Positions 31,310-35,279 of a stretch of 50,547 nt of DNA are shown piece by piece. The DNA comes from Bdellovibrionales bacterium (lineage in GTDB: Bacteria > Bdellovibrionota > Bdellovibrionia > Bdellovibrionales > UBA1609), in assembly GCA_020435005.1 (NCBI GenBank), contig JAGRAE010000003.1:1-50547 (forward strand), in the 5' to 3' direction. The notes beneath the pieces were generated by a model, which saw only the letters and a program-made list of their open reading frames with translations, searched no databases and was not told the DNA's origin. The position numbers were made by a program, and so were the translations under genes. The first letter of the stretch is position 1. The number at the start of each line of letters is the position of its first letter.

Positions 31310-31858
31310 TTAAAACAGATAACCAACTCTCAAGGTTAATGCTGTTTCATTATCTCTTTCTTCCCTAGCAATGGGAAGAAAGTACTGAAAGGCCAGCTGT
31401 GTAAACATCTTTTGAAAAAAAACACGATGCACCCCACCCTGAACTATACCGCTATATGTGAGATCTGCTGTTTGTTTGTCAGAGCCCACTCCTCTAATGT
31501 TTGATCGGACAGTTTCTTGGCTTAACCCAATTCCTCCCCCTAAAAACCAATGCCAATTTCGATTAGGAGTAAAGTCCCAAAGAACTGAAGGATTAAGTTC
31601 GTATCGAGTATAATCAACACTCAATGATCCTTCACTAGTAACTTTGCTTAAAAAATGAAGTTCTAATTGATAATCTAAGTTAGAAATATGCCCTTCTATT
31701 TGCCCAAATATTGAGCGATCTTTGTAGGAAATTTTCCCAACGTCACCAACTTCGTCTTCAGTACGAGAAGACACTCCAACACCAATAACTTTATTGTATT
31801 CAGCAAAAGCATTAGAAACAAATAAGAGACTTATTAGAAATACAATTTTAAGCTTCAT
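31310..31858 (-). CDS. Small outer-membrane beta-barrel protein
   Basis: 182 residues with signal peptide 1-19 (S-N-A-F-A) and alternating strands ending in aromatic residues, finishing with R-V-G-Y-L-F, a C-terminal Phe typical of BAM substrates. Probably an eight-stranded barrel (G-V-G-V-S-S-R, W-H-W-F-L-G-G-G-I-G-L, L-A-F-Q-Y-F-L-P). AGGAG precedes the ATG. It starts within the last 11 bases of the protease-like lipoprotein gene, so the two are co-translated. No specific function can be assigned. Confidence 0.75.
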   Translation of the reverse strand: MKLKIVFLISLLFVSNAFAEYNKVIGVGVSSRTEDEVGDVGKISYKDRSIFGQIEGHISNLDYQLELHFLSKVTSEGSLSVDYTRYELNPSVLWDFTPNRNWHWFLGGGIGLSQETVRSNIRGVGSDKQTADLTYSGIVQGGVHRVFFQKMFTQLAFQYFLPIAREERDNETALTLRVGYLF

Positions 31859-33302
31859 TTTTATCTCCTGTTAATTCAGTAGCTTCTACTTTTTTTGTAT
31901 CAGCAGAACACATGGGATTTTCTCCATAAAACTCTTCTAGCAAATCACAAACTTCTGGTTCATTTTGAATTCCTAATTTATTTACTAAAAGTTCTATTGG
32001 TTTGAGAGGCGATAAAAATTCTTTTAAATAAGTATTAGCCATATACGAATTAATTTCTGGTAAAATATTTGCCAATGATTTAACTAAATTTTCTTGAGCC
32101 TTATCTCCATATTTTTTACTAAGCACCTCAGATTCACTTAGTTTTTTCAAAAACTTGGCATAATCTGATGCCATTAAATAACTATAAGCATTCTCAGTGG
32201 GGATACCTAAATTCTTTAAGGCTTCAACATTTTTGCGACTACCAGGGTTGCAGCGAAAGTCATTTAATACTTTCACATCCATGACAATATTAGACGCACT
32301 TTTATACGTACCCTTATAACTGCCGTCTATTTTACGGTAGTGAGCTGATTTTATGGAATCTGTAAGGAAATTTGGGTTTTTGTCATAAAGGTAAGCATAG
32401 GTATCTGCATTTCCTTCATCCCAAGCACGACCAATTATGTAATTTACTTGGTGAGTTAATTTTGATAAGTTTTCTTGATCTAAATAAGGGTAAGATTTTA
32501 ATTTTTCTTCTTCAACACCAAAAGATACAAGCTTATCAAATACTTCTTGCGAAAAACTCAATGAGTTTTCTGACTTTTTTAACGAGACAGTTGCTTCTGT
32601 TTCTGGAAAACTGGGACTGCCAACACTTTTTGCAATCAAATTATAAAATTTATCGCCCTCACAAATTTCTATGTAATCACCCTCTAATTGACCGCTTAAT
32701 TTTCCATTCATTTTTGAACGTTGAATTAAAACAGTCCATTTAACAAGCGTATTGTAATGAGCATGAAAGTGTTCATGAGCAAGTACTGCTCCATTAATAT
32801 ATAGAGGCTTTAATTCTTCAGTGTATGGAACAATATTGATTGTGTCGTTAAATGGTTGATAAAAAGCATTGTCAGTCATGAATAGAGGATTTGTTAAAAT
32901 CCCCACTTTTCTGGGCCATGTTAGTCTGTCTTTTATACCAAGTAGCTCATCTAATTTTTTAATTCTATTGAAATGGTAATAAGAGGCCACGGCAGCAATA
33001 CTTTTTGTATCTGTTGGCACTAATACACTGCCCGCTCTTATAAAATTAGGTTTTGCTGGAGATCCGACTGGACCTTCACTATAGCTATAATCTTCAGAAA
33101 CAATAACATTTGCCGAAGCTCCGGACATAATAAAAGGATCCTGGAGATCATCAATTATGACGGTTTCAAACGACATACCCCCATGATTACTTGGTACAGG
33201 TAGTCTGTATTTATTTAGTTTTCCCTCATCCTTACTGACATCGCTACAAGAGGTAAGCAAGGTAACACCTAAAGCTATTAATAATACATTCCATTTTGTC
33301 AT
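31848..33302 (-). CDS. Lipoprotein with gluzincin-type zinc protease motif
   Basis: 484-residue lipoprotein, lipobox L-L-T-S-C (Cys19). A-H-E-H-F-H-A-H gives an HExxH zinc site (H176, E177, H180), and D-E-G-N-A-D-T-Y (295-302) supplies a candidate third ligand E296 in the E-G-x-A-D pattern of gluzincin proteases. A domain I cannot name fills the rest, with cysteines near 213, 353, 455 and 466. The likely role is a cell-surface or periplasmic metalloprotease. AGGA precedes the ATG. It is first in a pair with a barrel protein, which could anchor or export it. Proteolytic activity is inferred from motifs. Confidence 0.75.
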   Translation of the reverse strand: MTKWNVLLIALGVTLLTSCSDVSKDEGKLNKYRLPVPSNHGGMSFETVIIDDLQDPFIMSGASANVIVSEDYSYSEGPVGSPAKPNFIRAGSVLVPTDTKSIAAVASYYHFNRIKKLDELLGIKDRLTWPRKVGILTNPLFMTDNAFYQPFNDTINIVPYTEELKPLYINGAVLAHEHFHAHYNTLVKWTVLIQRSKMNGKLSGQLEGDYIEICEGDKFYNLIAKSVGSPSFPETEATVSLKKSENSLSFSQEVFDKLVSFGVEEEKLKSYPYLDQENLSKLTHQVNYIIGRAWDEGNADTYAYLYDKNPNFLTDSIKSAHYRKIDGSYKGTYKSASNIVMDVKVLNDFRCNPGSRKNVEALKNLGIPTENAYSYLMASDYAKFLKKLSESEVLSKKYGDKAQENLVKSLANILPEINSYMANTYLKEFLSPLKPIELLVNKLGIQNEPEVCDLLEEFYGENPMCSADTKKVEATELTGDKNEA

Positions 33303-33525
33303 AGACGTCCTAATAGCAAATGATGGGCCGACCAGCTAGATAATATTTGAATTCTAGGATAAAGTTTAATGTCAAACTTACAAAAAGTGACAAAAACCGT
33401 CGAATTTCAAACCTTTGTTAGAAACGCAAAGCATTGGAAATATTACCTATCACTTTTTACTTGTCACTCACCGCGTTTCAATTTCAAAATTATAGATCCA
33501 TACAACAAATTTACAGGAGTCATAC

Positions 33526-33735
33526 ATGGCTAAGAAAAAAACAAATACAGAAGAAATGTTACTTGTTGGTACAAAAGTTAAAGCAGCACTTAAGGATTCA
33601 GGTTGCAATGTTGCAAGTGATGCCCTTGAAGGTTTAAATGCTTACGTACATTGGTTAGTAACACAAGCCGCACAAAGAGCCTCTGAAAATGGCCGCAAGA
33701 CAGTTCGCAGTCACGACTTCTTAATTATGCAGTAA
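33526..33735 (+). CDS. Bacterial histone-fold protein (Bd0055/HBb-like)
   Basis: 69-residue basic protein with a single histone fold: short helix 1 (about 10-24, K-V-K-A-A-L-K), long helix 2 (about 29-55, V-A-S-D-A-L-E-G-L-N-A-Y-V...), loop G-R-K-T-V (56-60) and helix 3 from S62-H63-D64-F65, the same order as the G-R-K-T-I-K-A-E-D end of archaeal histones. Bdellovibrio bacteriovorus encodes such a histone (Bd0055), a major chromatin protein that binds DNA as a dimer. AGGAG lies 7 bases before the ATG; a strong terminator follows, so it is monocistronic. Few extra residues lie outside the fold. Confidence 0.88.
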   Translation: MAKKKTNTEEMLLVGTKVKAALKDSGCNVASDALEGLNAYVHWLVTQAAQRASENGRKTVRSHDFLIMQ

Positions 33736-33747
33736 ATTTTATTTATA

Positions 33748-33780
33748 ATTAGGCTATCTAACATAGATGGCCTAATTTTT
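33748..33780 (+). terminator. Terminator after the histone gene
   Basis: Stem ATTAGGCTATCT (33748-33759) with AGATGGCCTAAT (33765-33776), 12 pairs with one G-T, 5-base loop, then TTTTT. It starts 12 bases after the histone stop and runs into the end of the convergent 33779 gene. Confidence 0.85.
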
Positions 33781-34480
33781 AATGAATAAAACCAATCGGC
33801 TTTTTAATTAATGGATCTAAAACTTCCTTCAATGGAAGGAAACTGTAATTAAGCTTTTCATTCTTTACTTCATGAAGTTTAACCGCCACATAATTATTGA
33901 TCTCCATAAAATCATGTTTAAATTTATACAGCTCTTCATGTGTCATGCCCTGCTGCCTCATTGCATTCAACATACCATCAAACTCTTGATCTAAATCAGA
34001 TAATATTTTTTTGAGAATTATCGGAAAGTATTCTTGATTTTGTAGTAAAATCTGTCGGCTCATTTCCATAAGTTGATTCTGCATCTGGCTTTCATTGAAT
34101 AAGTTTACTAATTCCTGATTTGATACTTGTAGTTGACTTGATATTGGTAAAGATGGAATTTTCATAATAACTCCAAAATGAATAAAATCACTCAAAGGAT
34201 CTAAATTAGCTAATATTAACTGTTTAATTTGATCAATATTGGATTTATTTTGATTTATACCAAGTTGCGAAAGAAAGGATTCTACGATTGGCGTTTTTTC
34301 TAGAGCTGAAGATAATATTACTTTAGATGTAATTCGCATTGCGGTAATATTTTTTTCTGCTGTCACTGCTTCTTGCCACAATTGATTGGTTACATCTTTT
34401 ACTAAAACAGATTCACAATCACTAGCAAAAGCTGGAAAACCAATAAATAATAATGTTAATGCTAAAAAAATTAATTTCAT
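33779..34480 (-). CDS. Secreted protein of unknown function
   Basis: 233 residues with signal peptide 1-19 (P-A-F-A-S). The mature part is largely helical (Q-L-I-L-A-N-L, E-S-Q-M-Q-N-Q-L-M-E-M-S-R-Q, H-D-F-M-E-I-N-N-Y-V-A) with a single cysteine near its start. No family recognised. GAGGGG lies 5 bases before the ATG. Monocistronic, convergent with the histone gene. Confidence 0.7.
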   Translation of the reverse strand: MKLIFLALTLLFIGFPAFASDCESVLVKDVTNQLWQEAVTAEKNITAMRITSKVILSSALEKTPIVESFLSQLGINQNKSNIDQIKQLILANLDPLSDFIHFGVIMKIPSLPISSQLQVSNQELVNLFNESQMQNQLMEMSRQILLQNQEYFPIILKKILSDLDQEFDGMLNAMRQQGMTHEELYKFKHDFMEINNYVAVKLHEVKNEKLNYSFLPLKEVLDPLIKKPIGFIH

Positions 34481-34694: not shown

Positions 34695-35279
34695 ATGATC
34701 CAAATTATTTCATCGACAAACAGACCCGGGGCTAGAAGTTTAGAAGTAGCAAATATTTTTCAAGGATATCTCAATAAATGTGGAGAGAATTCTGAAATAA
34801 TTGATCTGCAAAAAATTAACTTTAGTATTTTAGATGGTAGTCAATACAGTGAAAATCAACCTGAGAGTATCACCAATATTAAGGCTAAACTCAATTCTGC
34901 AAGAGGATTTGTTTTTGTAGTTCCAGAGTATAATGGTTCTATGCCGGGAATTTTAAAATATTTTATTGATCATTGGTCTTATCCCGATACTTTTGAGTAC
35001 CGACCCACCTGTTACATTGGCCTAGGTGGTAGATTTGGTGGTTTGCGTCCTATTGAACATTTACAAGGGGTCATGGGCTATCGTAATGCTTTTCAGTTTC
35101 CAGAACGTGTTTTCATTTCAAATGTCTGGACCACACTTAAAAATGGTACAATTGATGACGAAAATGTATGTAATTTAATGTTACGTCAGGCTGAAAATTT
35201 TATTAGATTTATCCATGCTCTTGAAAGCCAAGGATTGGATGCAAATAGTTTTATTAAAAGTAAAATTAAAGGCCACTAA
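34695..35279 (+). CDS. NADPH-dependent FMN reductase family flavoprotein
   Basis: 194-residue flavodoxin-like reductase. The FMN phosphate loop S-S-T-N-R-P-G-A-R-S (6-15) and the flavin-binding V-V-P-E-Y-N-G-S-M-P-G-I-L-K-Y (76-90) define the SsuE/azoreductase-like family. Substrate cannot be read from sequence; relatives reduce quinones, azo compounds or chromate. No Shine-Dalgarno sequence at the ATG. The Nudix gene starts 2 bases after its stop, so both oxidative-stress-type enzymes are in one operon. Confidence 0.88.
   Translation: MIQIISSTNRPGARSLEVANIFQGYLNKCGENSEIIDLQKINFSILDGSQYSENQPESITNIKAKLNSARGFVFVVPEYNGSMPGILKYFIDHWSYPDTFEYRPTCYIGLGGRFGGLRPIEHLQGVMGYRNAFQFPERVFISNVWTTLKNGTIDDENVCNLMLRQAENFIRFIHALESQGLDANSFIKSKIKGH

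Follow-up and report, generated by a model that had tools for sequence, protein, structure and literature searches.

A histone of the face-to-face type beside two other kinds of histone in a genome from the order of Bdellovibrio

Introduction

A gene within the window (by which I mean the whole stretch of 50,547 nucleotides analyzed) encodes a histone of 69 residues, and the question it raises is which kind. Histones with a short third helix (alpha3) have been divided into face-to-face (FtF) histones, bacterial dimers (HBb), ZZ histones and others (Schwab et al. 2024, PMC11390915). The first-pass annotation of this DNA named Bd0055, the HBb of Bdellovibrio bacteriovorus, as the known bacterial example. 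The comparisons below place the protein instead with the FtF histones, next to HLp of Leptospira perolatii, so that the Bd0055-like label is probably a misfiling, here corrected to FtF. The protein is an added member of a family described in 2024–2025, and it is of modest interest because three types of histone are found in one genome.

The Gene and Its Surroundings

The open reading frame (33526-33735, plus strand) runs exactly from ATG to TAA and specifies the product MAKKKTNTEEMLLVGTKVKAALKDSGCNVASDALEGLNAYVHWLVTQAAQRASENGRKTVRSHDFLIMQ. A Shine-Dalgarno sequence, AGGAG (33515-33519, plus strand), is separated from the ATG by 6 nt, and similar sites also precede most FtF genes of relatives. 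Beyond the stop codon lies an intrinsic-terminator-like hairpin (33747-33780, plus strand), consisting of a 14-pair stem (33747-33777) and a T run. RNA folding gives it −20.7 kcal/mol, surroundings included, and a z score of −5.6 relative to shuffled sequences; it is absent from the listing of a simple consensus terminator scanner. Lying between convergent genes, the hairpin could serve both of them. The promoter would be expected in the 223-bp divergent intergenic region upstream (33303-33525, plus strand), where a scan found only weak sigma-70-like matches (four, as compared to 1.7 expected from shuffles). The histone gene stands alone, since both flanking genes (31848-33302 and 33779-34480) are on the minus strand. 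A stand-alone gene with a ribosome binding site and terminator of its own is what had been claimed for this locus, and in these respects the claim holds.

The adjoining gene at 33779-34480 (minus strand) encodes a secreted-looking protein of 233 amino acids, with no homolog in the 58 related genomes searched and no Pfam match above the cut-off. A comparison of neighborhoods with those of relatives brought to light no conserved partner gene beside the FtF histone. Some 1 kb downstream of the FtF gene, a gene for an FMN reductase is found both in the window (34695-35279, plus strand) and in a single relative from the same family (genome G015, locus L104), although the genes in between are unrelated. 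Nothing else hints at a shared locus, and where FMN reductase loci were read in other relatives, no histone accompanied them. Virus contigs searched for relatives of the window histone yielded none.

Sequence Matches and Predicted Fold

The best match to the protein amongst sequences in PDB is HLp (9qt0; E = 2.4e-8), ungapped across residues 9-65, followed by HBb/Bd0055 (E = 1e-4) and then by HTkC, an archaeal FtF histone (E = 0.024). The protein is a histone, an identity far beyond chance. A search with histone profiles, proposed by the first-pass annotation as a check, did find matches, but the general models score below their cut-offs: 14.2 bits with CBFD_NFYB_HMF of Pfam (cut-off 21.4) and 17.2 bits with archaea_histone of NCBIfam (cut-off 50). 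Short-alpha3 histones are poorly covered by the histone models of both collections.

An AlphaFold2 model of the monomer, built from 32 aligned sequences (pLDDT 88.7), predicts a tail (residues 1-9), helix 1 (15-23), loop 1 with Cys27, a long central helix 2 (33-54) as the first-pass annotation had expected, loop 2 with R57-K58-T59, and a helix 3 of three residues (62-64). This is a single histone fold with a shortened alpha2 and an alpha3 within the 3–4 residues of the class, as in 9qt0 and 9f2c. The model superposes on HLp with an rmsd of 0.6 Å over 56 residues (TM 0.97 by target), on HTkC with 0.9 Å, and on HBb with 1.1–1.4 Å. A nucleosomal histone of the archaeal HMf type was considered and rejected, in view of an alpha3 of 3 residues rather than about 10 and an rmsd of 2.3–2.6 Å to HMfA and HMfB. 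Judged by the Z score of the fold search, the superposition on HBb is about as good as that on HLp (8.8 vs. 8.5), and the fold of the monomer by itself does not discriminate between dimer and tetramer.

The Class of Histone

The classes can be told apart by particular residues. FtF histones possess, and bacterial dimers lack, the residues numbered R48 and N52 in the FtF profile (PMC11390915), which correspond to R51 and N55 of the window protein. These two, together with R57, T59, and D64, are invariant across 26 aligned FtF proteins, taken from records whose labels include Bdellovibrionota, Myxococcota, Planctomycetota, and Elusimicrobia. All seven of the aligned HBb-type proteins have other residues at positions 51 and 55. 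The RxTxxxxD motif (the RD clamp) is present as R57-K58-T59-V60-R61-S62-H63-D64, with R57 and D64 as the clamp pair. Profiles for the two classes, built separately and with the window protein left out, score it at 117.9 bits (FtF) vs. 36.4 bits (HBb), and they sort HLp in the same way (73.8 vs. 30.7 bits). In a phylogenetic tree, the HBb-type and ZZ histones group together, apart from the FtF proteins (support 96/96), and the window protein lies outside the HBb clade; within the FtF group the tree, based on 61 columns, consists mostly of unresolved branches. The protein thus neither clusters with HBb nor lacks the two residues that bacterial dimers lack, and by every testable feature of the sequence and of the predicted model it is an FtF histone. 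As a category, FtF histones were defined by a homotetramer in the form of a torus, and the window protein has the interface residues for such an assembly.

The closest of the characterized proteins, HLp (PDB 9qt0-9qt2), forms tetramers by SEC-MALS, held together in the crystal by R49, S52, N53, R55, T61, and F63. It contacts DNA through K15, K17, K21, and loop residues including T57, wraps about 60 bp, and protects 35–72 bp from MNase (Hu et al. 2025, PMC12701072). The window protein resembles it in its single fold with short alpha3 and in its sequence (about 40% identity). The gap-free alignment (HLp numbering + 2) places the tetramer residues R49, N53, and R55 and the clamp partner D62 at R51, N55, R57, and D64, the DNA contacts K15, K17, K21, and T57 at K17, K19, K23, and T59, and F63 at F65. 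The contact positions S52, T61, and T56 of HLp differ, however, being occupied here by E54, H63, and K58, and Cys27 takes the place of a Phe. The genomic settings differ as well: HU and a second histone are absent from L. perolatii (PMC12701072), whereas both occur in the genome of the window.

HBb/Bd0055 (PDB 8cmp, 8fvx, 9ezz, 9f0e) shares with the window protein the short-alpha3 fold, the RKT....D motif, and the lysines of helix 1, but it lacks R51 and N55 and has one extra residue in loop 1. HTkC of Thermococcus kodakarensis (PDB 9f2c) belongs to the FtF tetramer class, but it is archaeal and distant in sequence.

Other Histones in the Genome and in the Order

The genome from which the window is taken (G000; 3.39 Mb in 351 contigs) also possesses an HBb-type histone of 65 amino acids, the true counterpart of Bd0055 (L002:1492-1686), on a contig (C310) separate from that of the FtF gene. 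The minus-strand gene adjoining it resembles, by eye, one for an NAD-dependent DNA ligase. On another separate contig (C83) is a ZZ-type zinc-finger histone of 156 amino acids (L003:1213-1680), whose N-terminal zinc-finger pattern reads C-x2-C, C-x4-C, C-x3-C, H-x5-H. The ZZ histone D0LYE7 (PMC11390915) has the same C-x2-C, C-x4-C, and H-x5-H spacings but C-x-C in place of C-x3-C. The genome also encodes three proteins of the HU/IHF family and two of the ferritin/Dps family.

There are genomes of the same order with an HBb 97–100% identical to that of B. bacteriovorus, which assigns the window to the order of Bdellovibrio, though to another family (the relatives within the family are labelled Bdellovibrionaceae or Bdellovibrionales). 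Histones had been called rare in bacteria, but in this lineage they are not: of 59 genomes from the family and the order, counting that of the window, 54 have some histone. The HBb-type gene is near-universal, and an FtF-like score (E below 1e-12) appears, in patchy fashion, in 17 of the 59. Open-frame lengths suggest that five genomes (G000, G004, G015, G051, and G058) contain every one of the three kinds of histone; of these, G000 alone was read in detail. FtF histones of Bdellovibrionota have been reported mainly from the class Bacteriovoracia (PMC11390915); the present case brings them closer to Bdellovibrio than that account implies.

Probable Mode of Action

By analogy with HLp and to judge from the sequence and the model, the protein very probably assembles into a homotetramer and wraps DNA with no preference for sequence, beside an HBb-type protein that bends it. 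The fold suggests that monomers would pair head-to-tail through helix 2, and the HLp crystal suggests that two dimers would then join at two interfaces, with R51, N55, and R57 holding them together, to give a tetramer in the shape of a ring. The basic residues of helix 1 (K17, K19, and K23) and K58 and T59 of loop 2 would line the rim of the ring, around which DNA would wrap, about 60 bp per tetramer if it behaves as HLp does. The histone would share the nucleoid with the HBb-type bending histone, the ZZ histone, and the three HU/IHF proteins.

That the protein is instead the ortholog of Bd0055, or functions in the same way as a dimer bending or coating DNA, is highly improbable. HBb does have the same short-alpha3 fold and is the second-best match, but R51 and N55, both absent from HBb-type proteins (PMC11390915), are present here, the HBb profile gives 36 bits against 118 for FtF, and orthology in particular is excluded by the separate HBb-type gene at L002. 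I give slightly more credence, though still very little, to a role that is minor or not global, such as that of a growth-phase variant, perhaps in mixed dimers with the HBb-type histone. Such a role would accord with the patchy occurrence of the FtF gene beside a near-universal HBb-type gene, with its ordinary codon usage, and with the lack of conserved neighbors save for the FMN reductase in one relative. Against it stand the retention of the DNA-contact lysines and of the RxTxxxxD motif, and the precedent of Leptospira interrogans, in which the FtF histone is both essential and expressed at a high level (PMC11390915, PMC12701072).

The precedent from Leptospira also makes high expression of the window histone plausible. 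The first-pass annotation had suggested as much, but codon usage lends no support: with the ribosomal-protein genes of the genome as the reference, the FtF gene has a CAI of 0.689, about the median for window-gene fragments of equal length, 51% of which score as high. The HBb-type gene has 0.602, the ZZ gene 0.655, and the ribosomal genes themselves 0.62–0.76, so CAI separates genes poorly in this genome and neither supports nor excludes high expression.

If the wrapping tetramer is accepted, one may ask how two histones, one that wraps DNA and one that bends it, coexist in a single nucleoid. Genomes of this order with the two types side by side make a division of labor testable, and the histone literature cited here contains no experimentally studied bacterium in which wrapping and bending histones are used together. 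A more elaborate picture, which I regard as rather unlikely, is a layered histone chromatin composed of the wrapping FtF tetramer, the bending HBb-type dimer, and the zinc-finger histone, possibly with growth-phase exchange or mixed dimers, alongside the three HU/IHF proteins.

Variation Within the FtF Family

Two peculiarities had been ascribed to the protein, a cysteine near helix 2 and a few residues beyond the minimal fold. In the model, Cys27 sits in loop 1, between helices 15-23 and 33-54. Cys occupies this position in 13 of the 26 FtF proteins (V, L, M, or Y in the others) and also in aligned HBb-type proteins of the group (Met in HBb of B. bacteriovorus). It is no special feature, since it is common in both types. 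The extra residues are real and constitute the N-terminal tail, but they are not unusual. Across the FtF family, tails are 3 to 38 residues long and carry charges from 0 to +18, and that of the window protein is short (9 residues, +2). Archaeal FtF histones generally have no basic tail (PMC11390915).

Haloarchaeal FtF relatives borne on plasmids reach 50% identity over about 48 residues. A record from Guaymas labelled Euryarchaeota (L049:4995-5366) encodes a tandem FtF histone, with two FtF-like folds in one chain of 124 amino acids, both with R-x3-N-G-R-K-T. Four histones from genomes of a single family (L015, L017, L018, and L019, from G057, G050, G045, and G054) form a distinct FtF subgroup whose proteins end straight after NGRKTVRGYDF, and so have almost no alpha3; they make up a long, well-supported branch.
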